Positions 3,511 to 59,745 of a DNA stretch of 64,000 bases are shown piece by piece. A program made the translations under genes and the position numbers. This stretch comes from Gautieria morchelliformis (Eukaryota; Basidiomycota; Agaricomycetes; Gomphales; Gomphaceae). The notes beneath the pieces were generated by a model. That model made no database searches and had not been told where the DNA came from. It worked only from the letters and a program-made list of their open reading frames with translations. Where the stretch lies: assembly GCA_015179125.1 (NCBI GenBank), contig WHVA01000186.1:1-64000 (forward strand), in the 5' to 3' direction. Position 1 is the first letter of the stretch. Each line of letters opens with the position of its first letter.

Positions 3511-5343
3511 TGTCATGATTCGTTTATTCTGCGAATCATCCCTCAGAACACAGTGAATGACCTCCTGAACCAGCAAACGGCTGCCCGAACCAGCGAATAT
3601 CTTGCCAAAATATTTGTCGCCATACTGCTTTCACAGTCGCTATTCGCATCATTCCTGCCAGGACGCCAGGTGTTGGGGCCCTCATCCATCATAGAACCCA
3701 TCATCTGTTAAACTCCCACCCCATGACAGACCCACATGCTCAGGATGCATTCGGATAGTGTCAGTTGCAGCCTCCATGCAGGTTGGACTCAATGGGACTC
3801 GTACCACTGCAGGGCAGGACGAATTAGCTTCGCTGAAGTTTTCACTACACAGTTGTCATGACCCATTCATTTCTCGTATCCAGCTATCCCTGTTTTCCCT
3901 TTCACCACTCTTCCATGTTCGCTCGTCTTCTCTCCATTCGCTCCTGGCTCCATTCGCTCCTGGCTCCATTCGCTCCTGGCTCCATTCGCTCCTGGCTCCA
4001 TTCGCTCCCTCCTGGCTCCATTCGCTCCTGGCTCCATTCGCTCCTGGCTCCATTCGCTCCTGGCTCCATTCGCTCCTGGCTCCATTCGCTCCTGGCTCCA
4101 TTCGCTCCTGGCTCCATTCGCTCCTGGCTCCATTCGCTCCTGGCTCCATTCGCTCCTGGCTCCATTCGCTCCTGGCTCCATTCGCTCCTGGCTCCATTCG
4201 CTCCTGGCTCCATTCGCTCCTGGCTCCATTCGCTCCTGGCTCCATTCGCTCCTGGCTCCATTCGCTCCTGGCTCCATTCGCTCCTGGCTCCATTCGCTCC
4301 TGGCTCCATTCGCTCCTGGCTCCATTCGCTCCTGGCTCCATTCGCTCCTGGCTCCATTCGCTCCTGGCTCCATTCGCTCCTGGCTCCATTCGCTCCTGGC
4401 TCCATTCGCTCCTGGCTCCATTCGCTCCTGGCTCCATTCGCTCCTGGCTCCATTCGCTCCTGGCTCCATTCGCTCCTCGTATCATTCACCAGCAGGCACG
4501 CCATCAAACACGATCGACATCCTTTACCCGGATTGATGGTTCATCACTGGTCCCAACATCTTCTCAACTCAACCCCCTTTGGGTGTTCCTATGGCCAGAA
4601 TGCATTCGCAGGGCATCCTACCTGTAGGTCATGTGGGATCAACCCAGCAGATGAAGAGTCCATGCAGGGTGGTGTATATGCAGGTCCCAAGGCATGGTTT
4701 CGTACATAGGGGCCTTCGCCCTGTTTCCTCTCCGTCGTTTCATGTTCGCACCCCTCTTCCATTCTATTGTATGTCTATTTCATCTGTTATGTATCCTGAC
4801 CGCGCACCCCTATCCAACCCTGACTCCAGACGGCCTCTTTCCTATTCGCTAGCACCATATGAGCATTCGGTATAAGTAGTCTACATTCGCATGTATATTC
4901 TCCAGTTTAATTATCATACGTCCATCTTGTGCAAACTTGACCTCGCTGTGACTATCGTCTTGAGCCTTCCCCTGTAGATTTCTATCTTCAACCAGAAGAA
5001 GACTTAGGCATCACTGGTGAGTTCTCATACTTCATCTTTGTTACCTTAGCCTTCGAGGTATTTTCTGTGCTGTCAGCGAAGGGCTCCAAAGGAGCGCCTT
5101 CACCGGCGAAAGGATTGTTGCTACTTAGACAACCTTTCCGTGACACCTTGCATGTTACATCATCAAGTGACATGGGCTATTTCGCTATGACTGTAGATCA
5201 GGGCGAATTCCTTTTGAGTAACCCTCTTACTTCTTAACCCTTACCTCTTCGGTACTGTTCGCTGGGCGATTCGCTAGATCGCACACGCTATTTGGGCATT
5301 CGCCACTAACATGCGATATTAACCCCAATATCCAATCTTGACA
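3511..5343 (+). mobile_element. Nested solo LTR, family A
   Basis: Plus-strand LTR beginning TGTCATGATTCG and ending CCAATCTTGACA. It is flanked by GAGGA at 3506-3510 and 5344-5348, an exact 5-bp duplication cut into the older minus-strand LTR. A TATA-like CGGTATAAGTAG sits near 4870, where a U3 promoter is expected. At 1833 bp it is longer than the 1275-bp relative at 46850 because of an expanded 16-bp minisatellite (3932-4477). It has no internal region, so it is a solo LTR, younger than the element it interrupts. Confidence 0.8.
3932..4477. repeat. 16-bp minisatellite, about 34 units
   Basis: The unit CTCCATTCGCTCCTGG is repeated almost without change. One irregularity near 4004 (an extra CTCC) shifts the register. 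Because 16 is not a multiple of 3, each strand repeats as a 48-bp, 16-residue cycle that has no stop. All six frames are therefore open across the array. The long predicted peptides (LHSLLAPFAPGSIRSW type on plus, MEPGANGARSEWSQER type on minus) are by-products. It lies inside the U3 side of the nested LTR. Confidence 0.9.
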
Positions 5344-12059: not shown

Positions 12060-14885
12060 TCACCCCCCTCTAGCGTGCTGCGTCCTTGAAGCACGGGACA
12101 CGAGGGATTGAAATGCCAGCGAGTGGATTCAGCGAGGGGCACCGGGGTGTGTCCTATAGAACTCACGGAGTTTGTCTGGAGCGGAAACATCTTGCTCCGG
12201 GACCCACGAATTCTCCTCGTACCCATACCCTTCCCATTTCACGAGGAATTGGAGTCGTCATCGCACAAACCGGCTGTCCAGAATCCATTCCACCACATAG
12301 TGCTCTTCCCCATCTACAATTTCCGGCGGAGGTGGCGGACGAGCCTTCTGACCTGGAATTGGGTCCTCAAGCATAGGGAGTAACTTCACCACGTTGAAGA
12401 CGGGGTGGAGGCGGGACATGGACATCAGAAGTCGGAGGCGGTATGCATTCCGTCCAACCCTCCGCGTCACTGTGAAAGGCCCAAGGTAGCGGTGGGCAAG
12501 CTTCTGCGAAGGGCGTGTGGTGCGGATGTCACTTGCATCTAGATACACCTTGTCTCCAACTTGGTACTCTGGGGCAGGAACCCGGCGTTGGTTGTAGTAC
12601 CTTGCCATGTCATCCTTGGCCTTCGCAAGGGCCGACTTGGCTTCCGAAAGGGTGGAGTCCATGCGGTCCCGGAACTCATTGACCGTCTCGAGTCGGGAGT
12701 CAGCCTGGTGTGGTTCGAAGCCCATCCGCGGGTGTCGTCCGGAGTCAAGCATGAAGGGAGTCTGTTGTGTGGCGGAATGTACATGGTTGTTGTATTGGAA
12801 TTCCGCCAGTGGAAGTAACTCATCCCAGTCATCCTGCCTCTCATTGACAAAGAGGCGGAGATATTGCTCCAACTCCTGATTGACCCGTTCCGTCTGTCCG
12901 TCACCCTGTGGATGGTATGCTGTGGTGGTAGCCAGCTTTATGCCGAGCAGGCGGTAGAGCTCCCGAGTCAGTTCCGCGACAAATTGCGGACCTCGGTCAG
13001 AAACAACTTGCTTCGAGAGCCCATGCAACTTCCAGACATGTGCAAGGAACAGGCAGGCCGCCCCGAGGGCTGTGATCGTCGTGTGTGTCGGAATGAAGTG
13101 GGACACCTTGCTTACCGAATCCACGACGTTCATGATCGCGTCGTAGCCATGAGACTCAGGGAGTTCAACGATGAAGTCGACACTGATGGTGTCCCAGAGG
13201 GATTCGGGAATCGGGAGCGGAATAAGTTCTCCGACGGGCGGATGTCGTTGTGCTTTGGTTCGGAGACAAAGGTCACACGTCTTCACGTACTGTCCAATGT
13301 AGCGGGACATCTGAGGCCACCAGTAATTCCGAGCCACTAACTCCAGCATCTTCCACCTGCCAGCATGCCTAGCGACCCGTGTGTCATGGTGCTGGGACAC
13401 GATGTGGCGGCGGAGGTCCGCCCCACCTGGAACGTAGACCTTGCCTCTGAAGTGGAGCAGTCCATCACGTTCCGACCATTCCGCTGCCCGTACAGACCGT
13501 GAGTGCCCTTTCCGAAGTTCCTCCACTGCCTTCACCACCGACTCCTCCTTTTCTCCATTCCGGTACTGCCTCCGGATATCCCGGAGAATTTCCGCTTCCA
13601 CCCCAACTGCAGTCACCCCTTCTAGGGCGCGGATTGCAGAGAGATTTGGGTGGAGCAGTGTCATATCCGCGTTGTCTCCACTTCCGCTTCCATGATCCGC
13701 ACGGGGGGATAGGGCATCGGGCTTGCCCATGGTGCGGCCGGGGCAGTGGTGGAGCATGAAGTCGAACCGGGACAGGTGTAGGGACCACCGTGCTTGTCGT
13801 CGGTTCAACTTCTTAGACGTGCGGAAATACTCGAGGTTCTTGTGGTCTGTCCAGATCTCAAATGGGCATAGAGCACCCTCGAGGAAGTGTCGCCACTCCT
13901 CCAGCGCTCGGATGATTGCCAGCATCTCCTTGTCATGGATCTCATAGTTCCGCTCGACTGGACTAAGGCTTTTAGAGAAGAAGGCAATCGGATGCCACCC
14001 CCCACCATCTTCCGATGACTGTTGTGACAAGACCGCTCCGGTAGCTGTGTCGGAAGAATCCACCTCAACTCGGTAAGGGCGAGCGTCGTCGGGAAAGATC
14101 TGGACTGGGGCAGAAGTGATCAGCTCTTTGAGTTTGTCAAAGGAGGCCTGTTCCGGCTCTCCCCACCACCATCCAACCTCCTTCTTGGTGAGGTCGAAGA
14201 GGGCACGGGCGTGGCAGGAGAAGTCCTTGATGAACCGCCGGTAGAAATTGACAAACCCAATGAAGGACTGGACCTCCTTCTTGTTCCGCGGCACGGGCCA
14301 ATCCGACACAGCGGAAACTTTGACTGGGTCCATTTCCACCTTTCCTTCCGACACAATCACCCCAAGATACTCTATCCGCATCCGCTCAAATTCGCACTTT
14401 TCCGGCTTGAGACACAGGTTGTACTCCCGGAGCCATTCTAGCACTCTCCACACGACTTCCCGATGTTCGGACATTGTTTTTGTGAAGATGAGGATGTCGT
14501 CGAGGTAGACGCAGACAACCCCTTCTGCTATAATGTCATGGAAAATGTCATTCATCATCGTCTGGAACGTGGCAGGACTGTTGGTGAGGCCGAAGAACAT
14601 AACCTGTGGCTCAAAGAGTCCTCGGTTGGTGCAGAATGCGGCCTTCCACTCGTCGCCCTCCCGGATCCGGACATTATTGAAGTCCCAGCGGACATCCAGC
14701 TTAGTGAAGTACCTCGCCCCGCGGAGTTGTGTGATCAGTTCAGAAATGAGTGGAATGGGGTACCGGTTCTTGATCGTGATCGCATTCAAGGCCCGGTAAT
14801 CCTGCACAAGTCTGAGCGAGCCGTCCTTCTTCTTGATGAAGAACACCGGAGATGCCATGGGTGACTTGGAGGGGCGGATCCTCCC
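11588..14885 (-). mobile_element. Ty3/gypsy chromovirus, 5'-truncated
   Basis: Minus-strand element. Reading from 14885 down: reverse transcriptase (KKKDGSLRLVQDYRALN, YLDDILIF near 14500), RNase H (HPIAFFSKSLSPVERNYEIH, near 13960), integrase zinc finger and DDE core (DFIVELPESHGYD; YHPQGDGQTERVN, near 12900), and a chromodomain at about 12110-12300 (VEWILDSRF, KWEGYGYEENSWV). The 3' LTR is at 11588-12059. Gag, protease and the 5' LTR are absent because the element stops at a LINE near 14885. It is a fossil; what remains is largely open with about one break. The chromodomain places it among chromoviruses, which in known members steer integration to marked chromatin. Confidence 0.9.
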
Positions 14886-14889
14886 TGTC

Positions 14890-16494
14890 CACGCACTCCT
14901 ACTCGCCTACATCACCTGTTGCACCATCACCGTCTTCCTCTCAGACCCTCGCACATCAACAAACTGGCGCGAATACAGCACCAAGCGGCGCTGGATATAA
15001 CAGGAGCCCTCAGATCCACAGCTACCAACACGCTAGACGCGCACGCGAACTTACTCCCATTCCCGCTGTTAGTAGCCAAGCAAGTACACAGAGCTGCGGT
15101 GAGACTAGCATGCCTACCTCAGGACCACCCACTCGCAAAGAAAGTCAGCAGGGCGGCGAAGAGATATGTGAAACGTCACCGGTCGCCGCTACACGAAATT
15201 ATGCACGCCTTCAACCTCATCCCGGACAAAATGGAGAAAATCCAAACCGTTGTACACGGGCCCAAGTGGGCCCCAGCATTCAGCGTAAGGATACCACAGA
15301 CAAAGGAGAGCGCGATCGCAGAGCACGACACAGAGAGGGTGGAAGTAAAGGTATACTCCGATGGATCGAGCATAGAGGGCGGCGTAGTGGCAGCGGCGGT
15401 CCTATACAAGAACGGAGTAGAGATAAGAACCGCAAGGCTATACATGGGGCCAGACACCGAGCACACGGTCTTTGAGGCGGAGCTGGCCGGGGTGGCCATA
15501 GGAGCGAAGATGATGTTGCAGGAAAGGAGCAAGAGGTATGCGATTGTTATAGACAATCAAGCTGCGATCCAGACGACCAGGAGGGAGAGAGCGATCCAGA
15601 CGACCAGGAGGGAGAGAGCGATCCCCGGGAAGTACTTAGTCAACGCGCTAGACATGCAGGTCCAAAGGGTCGTCCAATGGCAGAAAGGAGCGGAGGTGGT
15701 CATGGAAGGGAACGAGAGGGCGGATGAGGAAGCGAAGAAGGCGGCGAAGGGAGCAAACAGCAGGGAGCGAGACATACCGATTGAGTGCTCCCGATAAGCA
15801 GAACAGCCGAGATTCAAAGACACAACGCCGAGTTGAAGCTAGAAGCACGAAGGATGTTTGCTAAGTCGCCCAGAGCTCACTTCGCACATGAGATTGACCC
15901 TACGATGCCGTCCGCAGCGTTCACAAAGATCACTAAAAACATGCCGCGCAAACACGCGAGTCTACTCGTACAACTCAGAACGGGACACGTCGCACTGAAT
16001 GGACACCTTCACAAAATAGGCAAGAAGGACTCGCCCACCTGTCCAGCGTGCAGGAACGCGAACGAGACTGTCCACCACTACTTATTCCGATGCCCCGCAT
16101 ACCACGAACAGAGGAAAGTGCTGAGGAAAAAGCTTGGGAGAGGGGCAGACTCGATCAGAACACTGTTGGGAGGGCACAAAACCATGGGGCATTTGTTCAG
16201 ATATATACACGACACTGGACGGTTCAAGGAACAGTATGGGAACACACTGCTCCCAGCGGACGAGAAGAGAGGTTGAGGGGAATGAGCAAGGGAGAGGAAG
16301 GGACACGAAGAGCGCAAGAAAACACACACCTCACCCACACAGGCACGGACACGCTCAGGGCCCTGCCCAATGAGCACAAGCGGAGATAGAGGTCTAAAGG
16401 CGAGAAGGGAAACGTGTGAAGGAATTTGTATAAATCGTCTTACATAGGGTGATGCCCCAAAAGACGTTAAATTGGATTAAAAAAAAAAAAAAAA
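14890..16494 (+). mobile_element. LINE (RNase H-bearing), 5'-truncated, with poly(A)
   Basis: Plus-strand 3' half of ORF2. It shows the thumb region (INKLARIQHQAALDITGA), RNase H (VKVYSDGSSIEGGVVAAAV; FEAELAGVAIGAKMML), and a C-terminal zinc-knuckle-like PTCPACRNANETVHHY followed by LFRCPAYHEQR, then the shared 3' tail (GTCTTACATAGGGTGATGCC) and a run of 16 A at 16479-16494. The RNase H holds a short duplication, the QTTRRERAI segment occurring twice near 15570-15620. A frame change near 15795 separates RNase H from the C-terminus. Its left end abuts the chromovirus; its right end abuts a host-gene fragment. Confidence 0.85.
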
Positions 16495-23915: not shown

Positions 23916-24035
23916 TGTTGCATCACGTGATGCAGTCAGGGCATTAGTCGCCCGTCGTACTATACAGTACGCGGCTGAGTTCGGAAGAAGAATCATACTC
24001 ATCTTCTTCCGAACTCAGATATCACTGCGCTCACA
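23916..24035 (+). repeat. Copia 5' LTR (120 bp)
   Basis: Starts TGTTGCATCACG and ends GCGCTCACA. It is built largely of palindromes: GCATCACGTGATGC near the start, GTACTATACAGTAC in the middle, and a 15-bp stem (GAGTTCGGAAGAAGA with its complement) separated by about 10 bp. Confidence 0.9.
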
Positions 24036-24077
24036 GGTTATGGGCCCCGCGCCGTAGTCGAAGGAGAGATCATCGCC

Positions 24078-24860
24078 ATGTCAGATTCAGAAGCGGAAAA
24101 CCGCACGAAGAGCACGAAGCTCTCAAGCACAAACTACAACGTTTGGGCGGTAGCGCTACAAGGCGAGCTAATGACTATCAATGCGTGGCGGATTATCACC
24201 GAAGAATTCAAACGGCCAACCGACGCAGCAGAGGCTGAGAAATGGCTACTGAAAAAGGAGGAAGCGGCCGGCATCCTATTAAAATCCTTATCGCCCACAC
24301 AATACGTCCACGTTGAAGGCATGATGGACGATCCCATTGAGATGTGGAAGATGCTAAGAGCAGCGCACCGGTCGCAAGTCGCAAACAGTCGATTCCACGC
24401 GATGAAAAAACTGCTAAACGTACGAAAGGACGACGCCGAATCTCTTATAGACTATATCACCCGTGTTAACACTGCTACAAATGATCTTACAGCCCTTGCA
24501 CCGAATACCCTAACCGTGCAAAACATTATCGATGAAATCGGCGTACACGCGGCGCTTACAGGACTCGATCAAGCTGAATATGGAGCCTTCACGTCCTCCC
24601 TCCTCCTGATCAGCACCCTTGACCGTACCACCGTGGCCACAGCGTTCCGAAATGAAGACCTGAAACGTCAGGCTTCTACGATCTCAACAGTAGCCGCACC
24701 GTCCATGACTCGAAGCAAAAAGAGTACTATTCTTACGTGCGCAGTATGCAAAAAGCGAGGGCACCTGGCAGATCGCTACTGGATCGCTCACTCAGAGCTT
24801 GGACCAGCACGAAATGACAAGAGGAAGGCCGCAAACCAAGCCAGAGAGAGCGCCCCGAGC
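24078..24860 (+). mobile_element. Copia gag part
   Basis: The capsid-like region begins MSDSEAENRTKSTKLSSTNY, followed by the NVWAVALQGEL and WKMLRAAH features of UBN2-type copia gag. A zinc-knuckle-like CAVCKKRGHLADRYW lies near 24740. Gag forms the particle that packages element RNA. Approximate bounds. Confidence 0.85.
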
Positions 24861-24929
24861 GAAAATACGCAGGAACTTGCTGGAAACGCGAATTTGCGGC
24901 TGTCTTTCCCTTCCCACGGCGACGATGCC

Positions 24930-26200
24930 AACTTACGCTGGAACACAGACACGGGAGCGACGAGTCATATGACTCCACACCGACACTGGCTCCGAAACTA
25001 CGAGCCTTACCACGTACCCATCCGATTAGCCACGAATGAAGTCGTTTATTCAACCGGAAAGGGACAGATTCTATTCACCCCTATAATTTACGGGAAAACG
25101 GCACAGGACATCATTTTCTCGAACGTCCTACATGTACCAGCCCTCCAAAATAATCTATTAGCTGTTCTCCGCCTCACCACCCACCACAATTTTACCGTCA
25201 ATATTGTGCGAAGCCGTATCTCATTCGTCCAAGATGGAGAGTTACGTTTCTGCGCCACGGTGCGAAACGGAACTGGTTTCCTAACCGGAAACACTGTCCC
25301 TAACCCAGAATACGCATTCTCCACATCGTCACCCATCGTAGATCGATCTCTATTACACAGGCGACTTGCACACATAGGGTCATCCCGTTTGGAAAGACTT
25401 CTAAAACATGACATGGCCCGCGGAATACATGTAAACTCCAATGCAAGCATGCCACCCATCTGCGAACCATGCATTGCGGCGAAACAACACCGTGATCCGT
25501 TCCCAAAAAGAAGCGAAAGCCGTACATCCAAACCACTCAACCTTGTTGTCTCCGATGTCCATGGACCCCTCCCTGTACGCACACCGTCCGGTCATCGATA
25601 TTGGATAACTTTCACAGATGATCATACACGCTATCGATGTGTGTACCTCCTGAAATCAAAGGATGAGGCCTTCGATGCTTACTGATCCTACGAGGTGTTT
25701 GCCGAAAACCAAACAGGATCACGAGTGAGGAGATTCAGGGACGACAAAGGAGGGGAATATATAGGCCGGAAATGGGACGAGCATTTCCAACACCGGGTAC
25801 GCCACAACAAAATGGAATCTCGGAACGAACCAACCGCACTCTTATTGAAGGAATGATTGCATTACTGCAACAAGCTCGTCTGCCAGCATCAATGTGGGGA
25901 GACGCCCTACAACTGCTAGTCCGTATTATCAATGCCACACCAACCTCTGCACTGCCAGACATGACGCCGTACGAAGCCTGGCACGGCCACAAACCAGCTC
26001 TGGGAATGTTACGTACCTTTGGCTGTACAGCGCATGTTCACATGCAGAAGGATCAAAGGGATGGACTTCAGCCTAGATCTCGAAAATGCATCTATCTTGG
26101 CTTCGAAAATGGATACAAAGATTGGCGTTGTCTCGATCCCACCACAAAGCGCACTATCATATCCCGCGACATTATTTTCAACGAGACTGAGTTCCCGGGC
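24930..26200 (+). mobile_element. Copia protease and integrase part
   Basis: The aspartic protease signature DTGATSHMT is near 24950. The GAG-pre-integrase zinc-binding region (LLHRRLAHIG, CEPCIAAKQH) lies at about 25340-25490. The integrase core follows (VVSDVHGPLP; FTDDHTRY), and then PGTPQQNGISERTNRTL near 25790 with the conserved glutamate. It cuts the polyprotein and inserts the DNA copy. Approximate bounds. Confidence 0.85.
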
Positions 26201-26689
26201 CTCTCCACTAACAACCCTACCCAAAGTCTGCTCAGATCAACACCTGTCTTACTCCCAAATGAGGTCGCTGCACCGCCTGACCCAGACCCACCGGATGCCC
26301 ACCATGAAATCCAACCTCCTCCTATCCCAGACCAACCTGACCATGATCTACCAGCTCCTCCAGACCCAGCCCCACCTGCCCCTGAACCGCCAGTTCCAGC
26401 TCCAGACCCTGCTCCACCCGCACCTCCCGCGCAACCCCGCCGTTCCAGCAGAGCTCCTGCCCGCCCCGACTACCGGTATCTGCATGACCCCTTCTTCAGA
26501 CCACGACCACCTCCCGATCACGACGATCCAGGGCCTGAAGGGGGTGCTGCAGCCAGAGCCTCAATAATCCAGGCCCTGGAATTCATACACGATGGATTGG
26601 ATGTCACCAGAGCAAAATTAATCTCACCTGACACCATTGAGATAGCATTCAATGCAACCATCAAAGATGATCGTGTCCCGAAAACATTC

Positions 26690-28235
26690 GCTGAGGCAAT
26701 GCGGCGCTCTGACGCACCATTATGGAAGGATTCCACAGACGCAGAAATGCAAGCGCTCTTGGACAACGGGACATGGGAATTGGTGAGACTGCCACCCGGA
26801 GAAAAAGCCATTGGTTCACGATGGGTATTCCGAATTAAACTCAACTCAGACGGTTCCCTGGACAAATACAAAAGTCATCTGGTGGCAAAAGGCTATACCC
26901 AGCGACCAGGAATCGACTACGACGAGGTGTTCGCTCCTACCACGCGATGGGCAGCCCTGCGGACGATACTGGCGCAAGGGGCATTTCAGGGAGCGTACAT
27001 GGAGTCCATAGACATTTCGAATGCATACCTAAACGGGATCCTAAGCGACGATGCCCAAATCTATATGGAACAACCAGAAGGATATCATCAAGGGGGTGCC
27101 GACTGGGTATGCAAGCTCAAGCGGGGACTCTACGGACTAAAGCAAAGTGGAAGGCTGTGGTATGAGCGGCTCGGATCGGCACTTGAGAACATGGGATTCA
27201 CACGTCTTCAATCTGACCCAAGTGTCTATGTCTGGACAAGCGAGACCGTCAAGATCGTTATACCAGTCTTCGTTGATGACCTCACCCTGGTATCAAATTC
27301 GAGACACGATCTTGATAGAGTCAAAAGCCGTCTAGCCGAAGTCTTCAAATTGAAGGATTTAGGAGAAACAAGATCATTACTAGGTGTGGAAGTACAGTAT
27401 GATCGCCTGCAGAAGACGCTAAAGCTCTCACAAAAACAATACATCGAGGAACTATTCAATCGATTCCACATGTCCGACTGCCGGCCTGTATTCACACCTA
27501 TGAGCCCTGGATTAAACCTAAGCTCAGAAATAGGACCATCAACACCAGAGGAGATAGCAGACATGCAAAACCTACCTTACTTGAACGCAGTTGGAGCACT
27601 GAACTATCTGGCCATTGCCACTCGCCCTGACATCACCTATGCCGTTGGATGCCTTGCTCGATTCAACTCAAATCCGGGCCCGGCACACTGGGCAGCCGTA
27701 AAACATCTCCTACGTTATTTAAAGGGGACGGTTGACCTAGCACTCACATTCGCGCCAAATAACACGGGCGAAACCTTTCAGACATGGACAGACGCCGATC
27801 ATGGAGGAAATCCAGACAACGGTCGCTCAACATCTGGTTTCCTCATCAAGATCGGGACTGGAACGGTTAGCTGGGCCAGCAAACTGCAGAACATAGTTAC
27901 CCTATCCACGACAGAAGCCGAGTTCGTGGCAGCGACCCTCGCCGGTACTGAAATCATCTGGCTACGAAGCCTATTCGATGAACTCGGTTCGAGGGTTGAG
28001 GAGCCATCTCATCTCTACATCGATAACCAATCCGCACTCACCGTCGCCAAAATCCAGAGCATCACGGGCGAATGAAGCATCTGGATCTCCGATACTTCTG
28101 GTTGCGGGAGAAAGTTGCCCAGAGAGCCATCCAAGTCGGATACGTGCCCACGAAGGATATGCCAGCCGATTTATTAACGAAAGCGTTACCTCGTGAATCG
28201 GTAGAACAGCACCGTCGCGCTATGGGGCTCTTCTG
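26690..28235 (+). mobile_element. Copia reverse transcriptase and RNase H part
   Basis: RT begins near WVFRIKLNSDGSLDKYKSHL, with KGYTQRPGIDYDEVFAP, the palm DISNAYLNG, LKRGLYGLKQSGRLWYERL and the catalytic FVDDLTLV (about 27275). RNase H lies at about 27780-28200 (TWTDADHGGNPDNGRSTSG; TTEAEFVA; IDNQSAL; YVPTKDMPADLLTKALP). A Pro-rich linker precedes RT at about 26270-26460. Approximate bounds. Confidence 0.85.
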
Positions 28236-43426: not shown

Positions 43427-44964
43427 GTTGGTTGTCTAAGGATATAACTGGCATTTACATGCACATTTCAGTGAGTGGGCTGATCACAGAAAATTCACAC
43501 AGCTGGAAGAAGCTTACTAGTAAGACCAAGGTCAAGCATAACGTCTGGAATGATGGCTACAGAATGGCTACCAAATATCAAAGTTCAACTACTTCATAAG
43601 TACAAGCGGTATGGTATGACCATGGTGCACTGCAAGGATGGCAGGTGCTCACCAGGGATGAGCTAGGTGCGTAAGTGGGGATGTCAATAAATGGCGGAAT
43701 AAATGTGTGACCCCATGAGACATACCTGGTACGGGCATGCATGGGGGACGTCGGGGTAGATGTTGATCTGGAACAAACCACGACCCACAAACAACGAACC
43801 ATGATGCATGATGCATAAACCATGAATCCCGTTCCCCTGATGAACCGCAATCAGACTGTCGCCAGAAACAATTTGGAATTTGGGCTTCACCATGCCTATG
43901 TCGTTATAGATGAGGACACTGCTTTTCTGTTCAAAAGGGTTAGCAATGGGTGCAGGTGAATGTGTACTTCGGCACAATATCCAGAAAAAGTGATCTCCAG
44001 CGAACGTTGACATTGATCCACGATTGAATCAAAAGGATGCACGAACGGCCTATCAACTTCAATGTATGGTAGTCCATGTATCCACACATGATGCACGAGT
44101 GACAACATGGGATAAACGGCACTGTAACCATTTATGATTAAGGATCCAGAATTACTGCCAGGACGATTATGTGCACTGGTTAACCATTTTTACTGATCAA
44201 CGGACAGAACATACCCCATCAGTACGCCGTATCGTCCGATATCGTGCCGGCTTAGCCCCGGGTCGGGATGTCATACAGGTCGAGGTCGTTTGTTGATTAT
44301 TTCTGCCAGGAGCTGCACGGACATGGCTGCGTATTTCGGGCATAGTGCCACTACCGTCACCTGTACGTCATACTGCATTCCCGTAACATCCACGTTCGCC
44401 ACCGTCACTCCCCATCACTAGCATGCACATCCCTTCCGGCGCCAGATCCGACACTGATGAGCGTGCAGAGAGAGGACCCAGAGAAGAGATATGAAGCATT
44501 GAAGGCAACGCTCGTCGCTGGACCACGTGACGCCAGGTGAATGAGAATGAGTGGGTGTCACTACTATGCCCGAGTAGGAACTGGATCGGTGCAGGATATG
44601 GATAAAGTGTCTTAAAATATATACCTCAGCCATTTTAGGTCAGTTTTGTAGCTAGAGTTACAAGTTATACATAGTAGTTTATCCAAGCAAATTAATGAGT
44701 AACAGGAAGAAGAAGTCTAAGTGCTGGAAGCTGCCTAATGTGTTTCCAAGCATTGTTAACAACCCCATGAGCTGAAATGTGTAGGTTTAATTGCAAATTT
44801 TCACTCAATTACACTATACTCTTATAATATGGATTTCCTCCCATGCCGGCACAGCAAGGAGCTCTGGTTCTTGGTTTCTTCCGTCACGATCTCTTAGACA
44901 GCTTTGGCGTGACAACACACTTTTGATCTCCGATTGAATCCAAACCTTCGATGTTTCGCTCCAC
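43427..44964. other. Unassigned interval
   Basis: Scattered short frames on both strands, none with a domain. Sequence just left of 44965 may be the 5' end of the transposon, but I see no clear terminal repeat. Confidence 0.45.
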
Positions 44965-47900
44965 ATGTCAGTCACAGAATGCCCGAAGTCGCCTGTTAAA
45001 CAGGTGACTTTGGAGAAGGAGGAGCGCATTCAAAAAGCCCTGGGGATGGTGAGGTCAGGTATCCAGGTCTCTTTGCATGGCGCTGCTCAAAAATGCAACA
45101 TTGCGTACTTGACCCTGCGAAATCGACTGCATGGATCGAAGCCTCACAAGCTGGCACACTCTGAACAGCAGCACCTCAGTCCGGAGCAACAAAATGTCCT
45201 GATGGCGTGGTGCAAGTACCAAGCTAATATGGTGATGCCACTCTCTCGTGCAGGGCTCCGGGAGAAGATAAATGATATGGTAGGCCAAATCCCGAGTGAC
45301 AGTTGGATACAGCGGTTCCTCAAAGCCCACGCGAAGGATATCGAAGCGGCCAAGTACCGTGGTCTGGATCCAAAGCATGCCCAGGCTTTCAACCCGTCGA
45401 CCGTAGCCACACACTTCACACTCCTTGGGAAAGTCCTTGATACATTCAAGATCCCTGTGGGGAACATCTACAATTTCGATGAAAAGGGAATCCAGCTAGG
45501 TGGAGGTCGGAAAGGGCTCCAGCAACAATTTATATTTTCGAAAGGTGATCGGGATTGCTACGCACAAAAATCCAACTTGCTTGTTCTGGTCACCATAATG
45601 GAGGCTGTTAGTGCCGATGGTAATGCAGTTCCACCTGGGTTTGTCTTGCCAAAAGGTGAGACTGGTGAATGGTGGAGCGTTCTGGTGTTGGATGGTAAGT
45701 TTGCCTGTCTTCTATCTATACACTATGAATTTTTTTGTATCCAGTGTCGCAACATCATATGCAGGCTGGTATAAGGGCAACCTAGGCAGACGCTCTACAC
45801 TCAAGTGGTGAACTGGCGAAGGGGGATCCAAAGTAAGATAGAGAACTATATACAGGACATAGACATACCTGGCGAAGGGGGGTCCAAAGAGAAAACTCTA
45901 AGGAACCCCTTCGTCACCTAACTACGACTATAAGCAAACTCAGGCATGCTATCCCGATTACCGAATGCCCGAGTTACATAAGCAATGATGCCAGCGATAA
46001 CAGGGCTGGACAGATAAGGAAGGAATGATGTCGGAAGGGGCCGGAACAGGAAGGGAAATAAATGGAACACAAGACAGAAGGATGCTAAAGGCTAGGAGAA
46101 GCTCAGGGGCCACCAACAACATGCTGCGATAATGCACAGTGTGATAATGCGTGCGATAAAGCATGTGATAATGCGCAGTGTGTGATTGGTGTTCCCCCGA
46201 CAGCTGGACAGATGATGTCCTGAGTCTTATGTGGTTTGAAAAGGTCTTTATTCCTCATGCTGTCAAGCACAACCCAAGCGGCTCCCCAATCCTTCTCATA
46301 TCCGATGGCCATTCCTCTCACGAGACGCCAGCACTAAAATCACTCGCATACAACCATAACGTCCTTCTCTATTCATTACCTCCACACACCACTCATAAAC
46401 TGCAGCCCGTTGACGTCGGTGTGTTCGGACCACTGCAAACTGGATGGGCCAAACACTGCCAACAACGTGCCACCATGCACAATACTGTCACATGTGCTAA
46501 CGTTGTGTTCGAGTATATGCTTGTGTGTGAGAAGTATTTAACACCACGCCCTATCGAGTCAGCTTTCTGTCGTTGTGGGATCTGGCCATTCAACCCAAAT
46601 ATATTTACCAATGCTGACTTCGGACCAAGTCAGGTGTCCTCAATTCAAATTGGTGCACCTATGGGCCACCCTGAAGCTATGCCATCGTCACCGTTCAGTG
46701 CAGCCCTGACTGATCCCAATGACATGGACTGGGAGTCATCATCAGTACTGGAGTTCATAGATATCGAAGGAACAGCTGGGCTTAGCGATCTTGCAGAACC
46801 GTCAGGTCACTCCCCAGTCCGCCAACCACCGATTGACTTATCGGATGGCTGTCATGACGCGTTTATTTCCCATACTCAGAAGCTCAGCTTTCCTATTTTC
46901 TCACCCCACCTTCGTGTTCGTTCCGATCACCATTGTCATGTTCGGCAACCAATTCTCGCTGTTCGCGCCAACTACCATAGCCACGCCGTCAAACGCACGA
47001 TCGACGTCTTGGGACTGACTCGGCAGTCATCACTGGGCCTACCACCTGCTCTGCTCGACCCTCTTCCGATGGTGTTCTGATAGTTGGGTTGTCATGACCT
47101 GTGTATTTCCTGCACCTTGGTATCCCCATTTTCCCTTTTGCTACTCCTCCTCAGTGTTCGCTTGGCTTCGCCCTCCACCTCGACCTCTCCTCCCCTATGT
47201 CACTTCTGTTAGCCCTTCCTTGCATTTCGCCGAACAGCTATTTGCTGCTCGCATCATTCGCCAGCAGGCACACCATCAAATACGATCGATACCATTCACC
47301 CAGCATGATGGTTCATCATTAACCCCATTGTCTTCTTAAATCCAACCCCATTGGGCGTTCGTATGGTCAAAGTATGTTCGCAGGACATCCCTCCCATAGG
47401 TCATGCAGAATCAACCCAGTAGACCAAGAGTCCGTGCAGGGTAGCATGTATGCGGGTCTCAAGACATGGTTTTGTCCATAAGTGCCTTCGCCACCTTTAC
47501 TCTCCGTTGTTTCATGTTCTCCCTCTTCTCACATTCTATTGTATGTTTATTTCATCTATGTTGTATCATGAATGTGCACCCCTATCCAACCCTGACTTGT
47601 GACGGCCTCTTTCCTATTCGCTGATACCTTACGAGCATTCGATATAAGTAGTTTACATTCGCATGTATATTCCCCAGTTCAATTATCATACGTCGTTCAT
47701 CTTGTGCAGCTTTGACCTCGCCGTGGTCATCATCTTAAGCCTTCTCTTGGAGATTCCCATCTTCGACTAGCAGAGGACTTAGGCATCACTGGTGAGTTCT
47801 CATACTTCATCTTCGTTACCTTAGCCTTCGAACCATTTTCTGCGCTGTTGGCGAAGGGCTCTGAAGGAGCACCTTCGCCAGCGAAGGGATTGTCAAGACT

Positions 47901-50280: not shown

Positions 50281-50862
50281 CTTCGCCGTGGATAATATCT
50301 TCTCCACATACATATATGTTCTTCCACACAATTCCCATCTTCCCGCCCTCCTATGTATATCGCAGGTTTCTTATCCTTGCATGGTGCCTGGCCCTGGATC
50401 GACTGTATGTTAACACCTGTTAAATTCTTAACTATTAATTGTTACCTATACATCAAGGCTCGTCCGATTAATTATTTCCCTTCATTCCGATTATACTCGT
50501 GCACGGAATGCTAACTCAATTGCGATTAATCTCTAATTGCACAGTCGATAATCCCAACCCATCTAATCAGGCCCCTCGCACATGCAGGCGACGTGTCGAT
50601 CATTCACTCTTCAGTGCAACACACATTAGGTTGAAAACACTTCTCTCACAACGTCTGCACACAACGTCTGATAATGTTCCAATTATCAGACTCGGTTTCA
50701 TACCATGGCATTATATAGAATTCTAAACATCGCATCCTACCTAATCCTCCCGGGTAGCATTGGATTGAACCGGATTCCTAGTATCTGCGGGATAAGTAAT
50801 AGGCAACAATAACCCTCCCAAATCCCATCGAATAGTTTCAATCGAATTCTTTCGAATGACAA
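50281..50862. other. Unassigned interval
   Basis: AT-rich DNA upstream of the microexon gene; it may hold its promoter. I cannot identify a TATA box with confidence. Confidence 0.4.
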
Positions 50863-51679
50863 ATGAATGTGCGCAACACAGCTGGGCAAAGCTCTTGTCA
50901 AGACCAAACCTCGCAGACACAGGTTATGGTGAGTCGTTGATGGATATATATGGGTGACTTCTGATTAATCCATACGTGCAGACCGACATCATGACCCAGA
51001 CTCAGGTAAGCCCGCTTTTCGGGGTATCTCATACCGGTTGGGTCGTTCTGATACCTTCATTTCGTTTTGCTAGAGTGTAACTGCGACCGAAGTATGCCCG
51101 TCGTCCTTTCTGGTGATGTCATGCTTGCTAACAATTCTTATAGACTGCGACAGCAACTCAGACCGACCACGTGACTGATATGGTGACAGTGGTGAGTAGA
51201 AGCAGTGGTAAATTTGGATAGTTTGACTAACCATTACTTGCAGACTCAGCCAACGATGTTCACAAGCCTTTGGGTATCGACTGAGGTTATCAACAACACC
51301 CAGAAAGTCGAGCACACACAGACCCAGGTCATGGTGAGTCCTGAGTGTTCTGATGTGCGCCACATATAAGCGTTGAGGCTGATGATTTGCATAGTCCGAC
51401 GTCATGACAATGACTCAGGTGCGAGTTTTTTTTCATCGAGTCCTGTGTATTTAGTAGATGTTAATTGTTGTGGATCTTTTGATAGAGTGTAACTGCCACT
51501 CAGGTAAGTTGCTCTGCCATCAGAACTTCAGTGTTTGTTAAATCATCTATTTCAAGACCGACACTTCTGTCATGACGGACTTTGTGACCAAAACTGTTGA
51601 CTCAACGATGGTTCGTTTGGATGTGTGTCATACCAAGACTCTCGCTGGCTCGTCAGCCATACGAGTTGAGATGGCTTGA
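50863..51679 (+). CDS. Thr/Gln/Met-rich protein of microexons, unrecognised
   Basis: I do not recognise this protein. Eight plausible exons, all phase 0, separated by GT-AG introns of 52-68 bp: 50863-50928, 50982-51005, 51074-51091, 51144-51191, 51244-51333, 51395-51418, 51486-51503, 51557-51679. They encode, in order, a segment ending QTSQTQVM; TDIMTQTQ; SVTATE; TATQTDHVTDMVTV; a 30-residue segment ending EHTQTQVM; SDVMTMTQ; SVTATQ; then TDTSVMTDFVTKTVDSTM and a tail to a stop at 51677-51679. Exons 5-8 repeat exons 1-4 in order, and matched introns are alike in length (53/61, 68/67, 52/53 bp). Total about 136 residues. No signal peptide is seen. The start at 50863 is the first in-frame ATG of exon 1. 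It may be the N-terminal part of the following locus. Confidence 0.55.
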
Positions 51680-51798
51680 ACCGCAATCTCCTTGGAATGG
51701 GGGGCATTCGCGCAGGTGGGACCTTGACCCTGTGAGATGTGAGCCTTTTAAAGTTGAAAGGGGACCTTCACAGGTCCACAGGAGGGAGTGGCACGCAA

Positions 51799-52025
51799 TG
51801 GGTACACTAACTGATACAATGGGCCCACCGATCCGTGCACTCCGCTTGAAATGATTCCGTGGTTCCTTGCCACAACCATGCGCACGTACCTATAAATATG
51901 TCGTTAATCACGCAATCGGTCCACTAACTGATACAATGGAAACATACGCCCAGGCCTACCCCGATCCGTGCACTCTGCTCGAAATGAATGGGTGCCACAA
52001 CTATGCGTACGTACCTATAAAATTT
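51799..52025 (+). repeat. Tandem duplication, about 127 bp period
   Basis: CACTAACTGATACAATGG, CCGATCCGTGCACTC and the ACGTACCTATAAA block occur at about 51800-51900 and again at 51927-52025. The second copy is in an open frame; the first is less so. It lies between the microexon block and the next exon. Confidence 0.75.
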
Positions 52026-54590
52026 GTGGCCCCTGCCGTTTGTGTTGTCCATGACACTGAGGCCACAGCTATGGCTAACACCCCACAGAGTCTCCCTAAA
52101 CGGCGCCCCAATGGTACTGCGGCCTTTCACCAAGAGATCATTGCCTGCCTGCGGGAGCTTGTCAATAAAGTGGCCCCATCGAAATTCACTGAGATCGAAG
52201 AAATCCTTGAGTACGAAACTGAAATCCCAGGACACGAAATGTAAGTCATACCTGTCATTTACCAGTTGACTCCTGTTGGTCTGAAACACTGATCAGACCC
52301 GCCGACGGACAAATGCAGAAACTGCCAACTGAAACATCGGGTTCCAACTTGAGGACCACTTACATGGTTACCCAAGCCACGCAATATCATGAGATCCCAC
52401 AACCAAATACCCTCGAGGCCCAAACAGAAGCAACTGCGGGACACACGTCAACAGTTCAGACGCTTCCCCATGCTGACCTGTTGCAGTGTTGCTACCAGCG
52501 CAACGGATCAAACATGCAGCACAGAGGTCTACAGAGGATAATCACAGTTCTAGACAGGATCATGTTGAGGAACACGCCACTTCTGGGGAGGAGTACCTGT
52601 CGAGCAACAAGCCCAAGTGCCGGCGCTTCGGCCGCTGACCTTGAGCCCGAACTCCCTGGCCCTAGTAAAGGTCAGGCCAAACGCAAAACTTGCGTGGATA
52701 AGGAGTGAGCCCCTTTTGAAATAGTGTGAGTATGATACAATGGTGACGGCTCACTCAGGGTGACTCAAACAAAAGAACCGCAAGGGCGTGGCAAGAGGTA
52801 CGTGCAACGGCTGCTGAAGACATAGTGGCCAACGAGCTTTTGTAGACCTCGCATGCTGTCTGAGAAGGCCGCGATCGCCGAACAGTATGTCCACTGAACC
52901 GTGATTTTTATGTTGAACGTTTGACATTATTAATTTCCTTGCACAAACACACCACTATAGTTACGAGGGTGTGTTTTAGCTGCGCAAATATTTACTTATG
53001 ACATCACTCGCCTAATAGATAGAAGCTCCCCATTTTACGTAATCCTGTGTAATTTACAATATAAAAGGAGGCCATTCTGACCCCCTAGGAGAATCATTCA
53101 TTCTAGCAATCTAACATCTTCTATCCATGTGACCTCGTGTGACTTGCATCTTACTAAGCTGCTAATCCCAGCTAGGGTTATTCACTTACTTTAGTGTCTA
53201 ATTCCTTGTTAAGTAGATACTTTTCTGCTTAGCCACTTGGACTAATCCTCCAGGTGTAATTCTACAGAGTGAGTCTGTCAATTGATAGTCTTGCCATTCG
53301 CACTCCAATACCCGAGACGATCTGATCAGTCAATTTTCCTGATTAGAGACTTTCACAAGTCACTTCTAAAACTCATTCATCCCTTGTTTTATTGCTGTGT
53401 GCTGGTAGATTATCAGGGCAGTCCATTTATAAAGTCGCCTGCTAAGTACATTCCTTTATATTTTGGAATACGCTTGGACCCCGATAGTGTCCTTGAACCT
53501 ACATTCTTTTATTTTATTGTTCAGTGCTGCTAAGAAACGTATTGCCTTCCATCCGTATTAACTTGGACTAGTTTTTACGCGGATTGCAACCAAGGTACAA
53601 ATATTAAATTATTTCCGGAGTTGTGCTGCAGCATTGTTGAATATTCTTTGAGTCTCGTAAACGACACGTTCTGATAGATTGAAGTGTTAGCAATAACACC
53701 AAAGTCTTGAAGGGTTCCAAAACAGGAGTGCCCATGCGCTACACAGGAGACAGACCCGGATACCCGCCATTACTACCACATCTGGGTGGTCCAAACCGGC
53801 CAATATCACGGTAAGGTTGCTGCCGCCTGTGCACAGAAGTGGCAAGGCTGCGGTACATGGAGTGAGTCATTCAATCTACATCTTTTTGCTACACTAACTT
53901 TTGTCAGTCTGCCTGACAGACTTAATTAGCGATAACCCTGGTTTACCAGTGGAAGTGTACGCTGCAACACCAGACACCGAGACCAGTCCAGGTATTCTCT
54001 CGATTATTTTAGCTTAATACGACAGGTGATACTTAACAGTCATGCTAGGTCTCCCGGACTTCGATAGATATGGCCTCCTCCGTTCCTCCCAAATCCTGAG
54101 CAGTAAGCATTCTTCTTGTCTCCCTTTGTTGGTTCTCATGTCTCGTAGCATCTTGAACTAGCTCGCCCTCACCGATAAAACCACCACCTCCATATCATCA
54201 ATATCACCGGCAAAGACGAGGAGGCTTCAGTGGGGGTAAGTAATTACATCATTGTATCGTGTTTCTATGCTACTCAGTGCGGTGGTTTATAGTTGTCAAA
54301 CAAAGCAAGAGGGACTCGGGATAAAAATGAAGGCCCAAATTCCCACTGCGAGTGCTGACGACCCGTTTGTTGTCAGTCCACATTTGAGAACATGTGGCCC
54401 GCACATCATTATCGGCATCTCATGGCTGTGGTGGAGGCAAGCGTGGTATCAGGGGGTCAAGAGGTCGAGGGGCTGGAGTACGGGGCCACAAGGCCACGGG
54501 AGCCTAGCGGGAATTGCACACGGTGAGTGCCTGGGACTGCCCGAGCCCGAAAATGATCCTGATGACCGAAAAATGATCACAGGCGATTGA
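51867..54590 (+). pseudogene. Multi-exon host gene interrupted by an LTR, unrecognised
   Basis: No known family recognised. The first clear frame (51867-52244) ends ECLRE-type acidic helices (FHQEIIACLRELVNKVAPSK; IEEILEYETEIPGHEM) before a GTAAGT donor. The next exon from about 52299 is Thr/Gln-rich (TTYMVTQATQYHEIPQPNTL), like the microexon block, and runs to VDKE at 52705. There the LTR begins and supplies a TGA. After the LTR (53725 on) the frame resumes as CPCATQETDPDTRHYYHIWV, VQTGQYHGKVAAACAQKWQG. Later exons have GT-AG borders near 53868, 53928, 53994 and 54051 (ISDNPGLPVEVYAATPDTE; GLPDFDRYGLLRSSQIL). Coding-like sequence continues to about 54525 (FENMWPAHHYRHLMAVVEAS). Exact exon ends downstream are uncertain, and other defects may exist. 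Confidence 0.5.
52706..53724 (+). mobile_element. Solo LTR, family C, in the multi-exon gene
   Basis: 1019 bp from TGAGCCCCTTTTG to GGGTTCCAAAACA, flanked by GGAG at 52702-52705 and 53725-53728 (the shared string is AGGAGTG when read through). TATA-like CAATATAAAAGGAGGCC near 53055. Two minus-strand relatives lie at 1039-2321 and 8072-9010 and share the right-hand 640 bp. The left boundary rests on the duplication and on faint similarity to the copy at 8072. Confidence 0.65.
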
Positions 54591-54599
54591 TTCACTGAT

Positions 54600-54970
54600 A
54601 TAGGTAACTCGGAAGTGCCCCAAAGTGACCTAGAATAGAGTGGATATAGAGCCGATTCTTGAATCGTGGTTATACTGGATTGACATAATTAACGATGTGG
54701 ATTTCCATTGCAACTCCATTGGATTGATTTTGGATTTGTATCGAGTCGAAATCTGTGAATTCTTGCGTTGGATTCCCAGTGAATTCATGGGTTACTTCGA
54801 TGCGAATGTTGAACGGTATTTTCATCGTATTGCCATCGTATTTTTGGGATTATCGGTGGCGCACGAGTGGAATCGGATGGAGAAAAAAAAATCCAATAGA
54901 AAAGCAATTAATCAAAAGGCCCTTGCTCATAAGGTAGGATTTCATAGTTTCAGCTTTATTGCCTGGTTGA
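54600..54970. other. Unassigned interval
   Basis: AT-rich. GTATTTTCATCGTATTGCCA-type near-repeats (GGATTGA, GGATTCC) but no feature supported. Confidence 0.4.
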
Positions 54971-57935: not shown

Positions 57936-58393
57936 TCGTGTTGTCGGCTTGGCGCGGCTCCCGGTAAGCGGAGAGCAGGCACCTATGTAGTTTTGGTAGA
58001 GCATAAGATAGTTCTATACACTCGAAAATACATTCTGAGGATCATATGCAAGCCCCAGTACTTCAACATTTATAAATGGCTCGGCTTCCCATCGCAAATC
58101 GGGCCCGTTACCAGTAGCTATAGGTCGAAGTAGAATAAAGTTCAGTAGTAGATTCCATGATGAGCAGCGACATAACTAGCTGCCTTAAATACATAGGTCA
58201 CATTCTAATTATAATTGCTGTCCTTTGTCTTGCAGACAACAAGGAGATCCTTGTTCTCTGCTGCGCTCCTTGTCCTCTCTACTGCTGTGACTACTCGCAC
58301 GGGTAATTGGCTTATGTCAGCACGCCGAAGTGCCGCTTTATCCAACAGTAGCTTGGCTCGGCGCCGAGCCAAAGCCGAGCCGCGGCAACACTA
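57936..58393. mobile_element. hAT-like MITE in the duplication
   Basis: 458-bp insertion. Its ends are TCGTGTTGTCGGC and, inverted at the right, TAGTGTTGCCGCGGC. The 8-bp flanks are AGTTCAGG (57928-57935) and AGTTCAGT (58394-58401), matching at 7 of 8. Copy 2 has AAGTTCAGGGCGTTGTC without insert. Near the right end is the palindrome GGCTCGGCGCCGAGCC. Non-coding. Confidence 0.7.
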
Positions 58394-58444
58394 AGTTCAG
58401 TCGTTGTCACGTGCGACCAGTATACGTAACGCGCGAGTCTAGCC

Positions 58445-59745
58445 ATGCCTCAAGAAACCGTTACTGTCTCTCTCGGTCAATGCGGCAACCAAGGCATGCG
58501 CCTCGATACCACCTGCGCCTTTACACTCACCCCACCCAGTCAGCCCCGTCTTATGGGAGCGTCTCTGTGCTGAGACAAGGAGGCATCCTCGAGGACTGGG
58601 TGACAAAGGGCGGTGAGCGCAAGCATGTCTTCTTTTACCAAGCAGAAGACGACCATTACATCCCCCGTGCTGCCCGAATTGATCTCGAGCCCCGTGTCAG
58701 TGCTGCTTGTTCCTCCATCTCAGGCCCAATTGACTCAGAGCGCCCCGTTCAGGTCATTAATACCATCCTGTCTGGACCACACGTAAATCTCTACAACCCT
58801 GAAAAAAATATTCATATTTTTTTTTTTTCAAAGGAAGGTGGGGGAGCAGGTAATGGCTGGGCGCAAGACTATGCAGCCGGCGAACGCATCTACGACGAGG
58901 TCATGGACATGCCCCCTCGTGAGACAGAAGGCAGCAGCTCCCTCGAAGTAATCCATCTTGCTGTATACCCTGGGACTGAATTCCTCACTACATTCTGGTT
59001 TCATGCTCTGCACTCCATCGCAGATGGCACCTGTTCTGGCCTTGGATCCTACGTCTTGAACGGCTCAACAATCGTTTCCAAAGAAGATGATGCAGACCTA
59101 CTCTGTCTTCCATAACCACCAATAAATCGATGTCGTTATTTAGCCCTACAATTCCCTTCTCACCCTCAAATGCCTCACGAAACATGCCCACTCACTCGCC
59201 GTGTTCGGCAATAACGTGCTCGCGCGCATATCGGCAGAGAAGCTCTATACTTACTGACGCCAAGCTTTGATCAGACCGATCAGTTGGTGAGTTATAAAGT
59301 TGTGTTTTATGCTTTACACGTGTGGCACGTGCGTAGACCATGCAACTAAGTGGTTTTTTACCAGGTGGCAACGGTAATGGCGGCAAGCACACAGACGCTG
59401 CGCTATCCCTGCCCCATGTACAACGACCTTCTCAGCCTTATCGCTCTCCTCATCTCTCGCTCACGCTGCCACTTGCGCTTGACCTCCTACACCTCTTTCA
59501 CAGGCGACCAGATTGATCAGGCGCGTTTCCTCACCCACAACTTGATCCTGGTCCACACCCATTCTCTTGTTTACCTCGCCATCCGTTCATCGCGTAGGCG
59601 AATCCCGTCCGTAAAGCAACAGTCCTCAACGTCATGCGGCGCCTCCTCCAACCCAAGAACCGTATAGTCTCGATGGCGCCTAGTAAGACCGCGTGCTACA
59701 TCTCTGCCCTTAACATCATCCAGGGTGACCGTCGACCTTACCGAT
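58445..59745 (+). pseudogene. Gamma-tubulin pseudogene
   Basis: Gamma-tubulin nucleates microtubules at spindle pole bodies. Here the start is ATGCCTCAAGAAACC (MPQETVTVSLGQCGNQ). It is followed, in other frames, by [126 protein letters not shown], and [20 protein letters not shown] with [12 protein letters not shown]. Introns remain: 58696-58752 (57 bp, GTCAGT...TTCAG) and 59287-59364 (78 bp, GTGAGT...CCAG), so the copy arose through DNA, not RNA. Frame changes and stops are spread throughout. The GTP-binding GGTGSG motif reads DGTCSG. The C-terminal third is missing. Confidence 0.9.

Follow-up and report, generated by a model that had tools for sequence, protein, structure and literature searches.

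Short in-frame exons in the window

The window analysed here is a 64,000-nt stretch of the Gautieria morchelliformis genome (122 Mb in 1113 contigs), located on contig C211. Within an 817-nt block it carries eight short segments bordered by GT and AG, each a multiple of three in length (Table 1). The seven introns between them (53, 68, 52, 52, 61, 67 and 53 nt) are GT-AG throughout, and the spliced block forms a single open frame of 411 nt. With donors set to GTNNG, acceptors to HAG, intron lengths to 45-75 nt and phase-0 exon lengths to 12-99 nt (patterns picked post hoc from the sequence, with an open last exon optional), four seven-intron chains open from the start were recovered in the real window sequence and none in 300 dinucleotide shuffles; in at least one of the four, exons 2 and 6 and exons 3 and 7 were equal in length. 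The eight exons and their introns described in the initial annotation were all located.

That annotation had also described exons 5-8 as an ordered repeat of exons 1-4. The tail of exon 1 together with exons 2 and 3, set without gaps against the tail of exon 5 together with exons 6 and 7, shows 46 identities in 57 bases, a level reached by 0 of 2000 shuffles. The homology of exon 1 to exon 5 is restricted to its last 15 nt, the remainder of exon 1 being derived from the transposon. Where exon 8 ends, the GTTAGT of the parent gene described below is replaced by GTTCGT of the transposon. Since GTTCGT also serves as the intron-17 donor in our hand model of the parent gene, splicing at the end of exon 8 would be possible in the window.

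Table 1. Exons of the block and parts of the transposon that carries it (window positions)
Feature	Position	Strand	Description
Nonautonomous transposon copy	50414-54965	+	KDZ/Kyakuja-like ends CACCTG...GCCTG; split by insert 52928-54385
Transposon 5' arm	50414-50911	+	88% identical in KDZ-bearing L015/L016; side of the transposase gene end in long copies
Captured C138 fragment	50914-51613	+	From the tail of exon 8 through exon 15 into the start of intron 15
Exon 1	50863-50928	+	66 nt from ATG; transposon to ~50911, then tail of host exon 8 (QTQVM)
Microexon 2	50982-51005	+	24 nt, TDIMTQTQ; host exon 9
Microexon 3	51074-51091	+	18 nt, SVTATE; host exon 10
Exon 4	51144-51191	+	48 nt, TATATQTDHVTDMVTV; host exon 11
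Exon 5	51244-51333	+	90 nt, TQPTMFTSLWVSTEVINNTQKVEHTQTQVM; host exon 12
Microexon 6	51395-51418	+	24 nt, SDVMTMTQ; host exon 13
Microexon 7	51486-51503	+	18 nt, SVTATQ; host exon 14
Exon 8	51557-51610 (54 nt) or to TGA 51677-51679	+	Host exon 15, then transposon past the join
Transposon 3' part	51610-52927	+	Second internal deletion at ~52184/52187
Insert	52928-54385	+	Missing from seven other elements aligned there (L010-L013, L017, L019, L020)
Transposon 3' end	54386-54965	+	97.9-99.7% identical in L010-L013, L017, L019

Copies of the block and the transposon family

Comparison of the block with its own genome returned 16 matches, seven of them near full-length. Six of these seven, including the window, cover all 817 nt at 97-100% identity and lie in one transposon family, whilst the seventh (query 52-754, 98%) lies in a host gene on contig C138, which also holds a second, short match (query 375-478, 81%). 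A further six matches comprised the last 70 nt alone and two the first 49 nt alone, the latter sharing their contigs with two of the tail matches at distances of ~5.7-5.9 kb. In all six transposon copies, similarity to the donor gene is limited to a captured piece of ~700 nt, 98-99% identical to the C138 sequence (98% for the window, against L014 5232-4532(-)).

Alignment of window positions 44-58 kb to 12 fetched stretches delimited the element. Its abrupt 5' boundary at 50414 is common to eight aligned elements (window, L009-L013, L015 and L016), and its 3' boundary at 54965 is common to the window, L010-L013, L017, L019 and L050. Perfect 7-bp target site duplications (TSDs) flank L010-L013 (GTTCTAA, AACCGCC, GTTTGGC and CCAGATC), and the long element on C178 has ATTATTT at both sides. 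Overall, 7-bp TSDs were found in five of the six elements examined (the window copy, L010-L013 and the C178 element); the window copy has no TSD (5' ATGTTAA, 3' GTTGAGC). For four empty insertion sites, the open reading frames (ORFs) across them were listed. At the very ends of the element, inverted agreement extends to 6 of the first 16 bases, so there is no terminal repeat. Over 120 bases the ends show a weak inverted similarity (score 43); none of 200 plain shuffles and 2 of 1000 that preserved dinucleotides scored at least as high.

In two long relatives, L015 and L016, the match to the window breaks off at 50911 and resumes at 51610, with 5.7 and 5.9 kb in between. ORFs of L016, on the strand opposite to the captured sense, match the CxC2 domain (PF18803, 2.7e-29) and the KDZ transposase (PF18758, 2.1e-33), and a genome search places KDZ matches inside both long elements (C178 and C567). 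Among the 91 KDZ matches listed by that search (at least 91 in total, often several per element), none fell on the six block-bearing contigs. In the six block copies the captured block replaces the KDZ segment, which makes them nonautonomous. Pairing of 15 5'-end with 24 3'-end matches yielded no short derivatives of the family besides these six, several ends being partnerless on their contig and able to conceal others. By its TSDs, its ends and the transposase domain matches of its relatives, the family appears to be a close fit to the Kyakuja type.

The opposed orientation of the L016 transposase ORFs raises the alternative that the copies act as RNA, whereby transcription in the transposase direction would produce antisense to the C138 gene and possibly silence it. 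The high identity of the captured pieces to the donor would suit such a role, but the nonautonomous copies are without the transposase segment, and we judge this reading distinctly unlikely.

The 3' portion of the element shows two further discontinuities. At the second deletion point (52184/52187), L017-L020 hold ~2.6-3.1 kb. The insert listed in Table 1 was compared across elements other than L009, which is unalignable there. A 1456-nt portion of it is 99% identical to C190:181293-182749, of which ~795 nt belong to a high-copy repeat present in at least 38 more copies of 95-98% identity (40 scored out of 1184 candidates); for the remainder, C190 is the sole other holder among the scored matches. 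In appearance the insert is closer to filler DNA drawn from a different locus than to a clean insertion, and the second gap together with the stretch shared with C190 suggests repeated patching within this element family.

The parent gene

The hand model of the C138 gene (L014 6610-3869, minus strand) comprises 18 exons encoding 594 amino acids. Fifteen of its 17 introns are in phase 0, one is GC-AG, and their lengths are 48-67 nt. Exons 8-11 (90-24-18-48 nt) and 12-15 (90-24-18-54 nt) correspond to the two units in the window, and exon 16 (90 nt) begins a third; related exons extend beyond the captured region at both sides. Exon 5 measures 12 nt, and 5 of the 18 exons are of 36 nt or less. 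The hydrophobic N-terminus, MISLAIGLLLAGGAAAQ, was read by eye as signal-peptide-like. The product of the gene so modelled is probably secreted and rich in Thr, Gln and Val, with phase-0 microexon modules in tandem as its building units.

Between the repeat units, pS was 0.50-0.82 and pN 0.09-0.19, giving pN/pS of ~0.2 (uncorrected for multiple hits; exons 8-10, 12-14 and 16 compared in four overlapping sets), which indicates that the repeat protein is conserved. The coding status of the gene rests on the hand model and on this ratio. In a gapped test of the parent gene, which was insensitive, single short exons and introns scored under the 99th percentile of the shuffles. The full gene was found once in the genome, all other matches of the DNA and protein searches lying in the six transposon copies. 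No Pfam family matched the hand-spliced protein up to E = 1. A match of the repeat region to PDB entry 9e5c chain 0q (1.2e-15) consisted of six weak, biased Thr/Val/Ala-rich stretches and was dismissed as an effect of composition.

The microexon duplication is genuine and old, and it belongs to the C138 gene. The initial annotation was right that a whole exon-intron block had been duplicated in phase, but this took place in the C138 gene, and the window holds a transposon-borne fragment of the result. The parent gene is of note in its own right as an old and constrained array of in-phase exons of 12 to 126 nt in a basidiomycete, and it may possibly produce splice variants.

Junctions and probable capture history

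At the 5' join, transposon sequence ending in CCAAACCT is followed by ~2 unmatched bases (filler) and then by host CAGACACAGG. At the 3' join, host sequence ending in ATGGTT and transposon GGTTCG overlap by GGTT (4 nt). Both joins are identical in all six copies, which is most simply explained if the capture happened once and the chimera multiplied afterwards. Four of the six copies (window, L009, L010 and L011) have three changes in common, two of them exonic and one intronic; these fit a stepwise spread, with conflicts to a simple tree at 51469 (a CpG position, changed in the window, L009 and L013) and 51482 (where the window agrees with the donor against the other five copies). The two long KDZ copies with the best match to the 5' arm are only ~90% identical to it, so the immediate parent of the chimeric element was not seen.

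Identity alone gives no direction of transfer, and the C138 gene might in principle have taken the block from the transposon. The C138 modules, however, run on in frame at both sides, and the transposon copies, all six, break off at common points, of which one is mid-exon; we give the reversed direction next to no credence. The shared junctions, the 7-bp TSDs and the CA..TG ends argue that a KDZ transposon captured a fragment of a host gene in Pack-like fashion (transduplication) and now carries it as passenger DNA, a reading to which we assign a probability of about 0.93. Its basis is formed by the copies, the donor, the junctions, the TSDs, the transposase in the long copies and the substitution pattern described below.

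Under this capture reading, a KDZ-superfamily transposon, most like Kyakuja, would have lost its transposase segment and taken up in its place ~700 bp from the middle of the single-copy C138 gene. Uptake probably occurred through gap repair in the element with the host gene as template, a mechanism that we infer and that would leave filler at one end and the 4-nt overlap at the other. The chimeric element would then have moved to six or more sites, the window among them, presumably with the help of a transposase provided in trans, and its copies would persist as passenger DNA decaying at CpG sites as methylated repeats do, with methylation and silencing both presumed.

Sequence change in the six copies

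Across 698 aligned bases, the six copies differ from the donor at 25 substitution sites, of which 15 fall within the 291 exonic nt and 10 within the remaining, intronic bases, a count that leaves out a 2-nt difference in intron 2, a 7-nt deletion and the columns past 51613. The one-sided binomial probability for the exonic excess was 0.05, indicating that exons have changed no more slowly than introns. Counted by hand, with the donor frame applied to every copy including the frameshifted L013, the exonic changes comprised 11 nonsynonymous and 4 synonymous substitutions, against 3.5 synonymous expected by site counts. C-to-T or G-to-A changes at CpG accounted for 13 of the 25 (counted by hand, a change shared by several copies being taken as one), whilst CpG makes up 64 of the 698 bases (probability 6e-8 under uniform change). 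This excess suggests methylation of the copies.

By alignment, intron borders are kept in all six copies and the chimeric frame is open in five of them, L013 carrying the 7-nt deletion at the start of exon 4. With a divergence between copies of 0.7-2.2%, kept borders and an open frame are also allowed under neutrality, and judged by their substitutions the copies look unconstrained for coding. The window copy is moreover without the first seven exons of the parent, where the likely signal peptide lies, and without the last three.

Two gene-based readings bear on these data. The proposal that the window locus is itself a functional gene, producing variants by skipping of symmetric microexons, draws on seven border-intact introns, an open spliced frame and wholly symmetric exons. 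Against it, the signal peptide exon is absent, exon 1 is mostly transposon and exon 8 enters the transposon, the same junctions recur in six transposon copies, and coding constraint is not seen; we consider this reading highly improbable. Variant production at the window locus, as the initial annotation had proposed, is correspondingly unlikely for a fragment lacking the signal-peptide exon and any visible coding constraint. The second reading, that the chimeric copies now form a small, newly recruited gene family, expressed and translated from a transposon start joined to the host repeat, would account for the five open frames of six, for an ATG and a stop within transposon sequence and for the GTTCGT at the end of exon 8, from which onward splicing is conceivable. 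With 11 of the 15 exonic changes altering amino acids in a neutral-like manner, the exon 4 deletion in one copy and the CpG decay pattern, we hold it to be very unlikely.

Relation to known systems

Pack-TYPE elements are described as nonautonomous DNA transposons that multiply a copied piece of a host gene, with examples of this or of transduplication in plant Pack-MULE and Pack-CACTA elements and in a Pyrenophora tritici-repentis hAT element with a histone H3-like gene (PMC8903248, PMC3538342). The elements described here resemble them in carrying coding-gene DNA from elsewhere in the genome (~700 nt from C138), in being nonautonomous and present in six copies, and in having TSDs (perfect and of 7 bp in L010-L013). 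They differ in being of KDZ type, in the degenerate inverted similarity of their ends and in a cargo that is an array of phase-0 microexons. Because the superfamily is unlike those of the cited papers and clear terminal inverted repeats (TIRs) are missing, we regard the family as a variant of Pack-TYPE and not as a plain member.

Kyakuja transposons, KDZ elements of mushroom-forming fungi, are characterized in a 2025 paper by 7-bp TSDs, CA..TG ends and no TIRs, and the cargo published there is a TET/JBP dioxygenase gene (PMC12730594). The family shares with them the KDZ transposase and CxC2 domain of its long copy, the 7-bp TSDs and the CA..TG ends; its ends have no terminal repeat but show a weak subterminal inverted similarity above that of most shuffles. 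A search for TET/JBP (PF12851) gave no match in this genome, and the control genomes were equally silent. Other than the TET/JBP work (PMC12730594), none of the open-access literature matches listed concerned gene capture by KDZ or Kyakuja elements. The cargo-bearing transposon, the donor gene, both junctions, transposase-bearing relatives and TSDs are all held by one genome here, so that gene capture by a KDZ element can be traced stepwise. The case is also a warning that neat exon arrays in raw sequence may be transposon cargo.

Another basidiomycete, Pleurotus ostreatus, reportedly has class II elements with captured genes, in that case Helitrons (PMC4289320). Helitrons are not expected to yield 7-bp TSDs, and on these TSDs together with the KDZ-bearing relatives a Helitron identity was rejected.

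Micro-exon genes (MEGs) are defined by having most of their coding sequence in microexons, and their symmetric exons are placed between longer end exons. In schistosomes, MEG exons measure 3-81 bp (PMC10526429) and introns up to 5 kbp. Only the parent gene invites this comparison, being by its model a candidate gene for a secreted protein with a probable signal peptide and short exons. It differs in its short introns, which are nowhere near 5 kbp, and in that exons of 36 nt or less make up a minority of its 18. Its product may possibly be a MEG-like cell-surface or wall protein. Microexons in fungi are described as little characterised (PMC11121469), and we found no account of tandem exon duplication with fungal microexons in the open-access literature.

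As the captured introns are all in phase 0 and the wholly captured exons all symmetric, the fragment could serve as a ready-made mobile splice cassette. If the transposon came to lie sense-wise within a phase-0 intron, a new protein could gain Thr/Gln/Val-rich repeats without loss of frame; alternatively, antisense RNA from the fragment could act on the parent, which would then be a MEG-like gene with splice variants of its own. We consider a mobile cassette or feedback role of this kind very unlikely.

Other features of the window

Elsewhere in the window, a 16-bp unit is repeated in 33.9 copies at 3932-4477 (98% matches), and both strands of this array have long open frames. Long reverse-transcriptase/integrase-like ORFs at 12258-14906 (-) and 23979-28075 (+) appear by eye gypsy-like and copia-like, and ORFs at 44938-47080 (+) resemble, also by eye, a pogo/Fot-type DDE transposase. 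A frame at 58291-59115 (+) has a stretch that appears to resemble gamma-tubulin, apparently in degenerate form.
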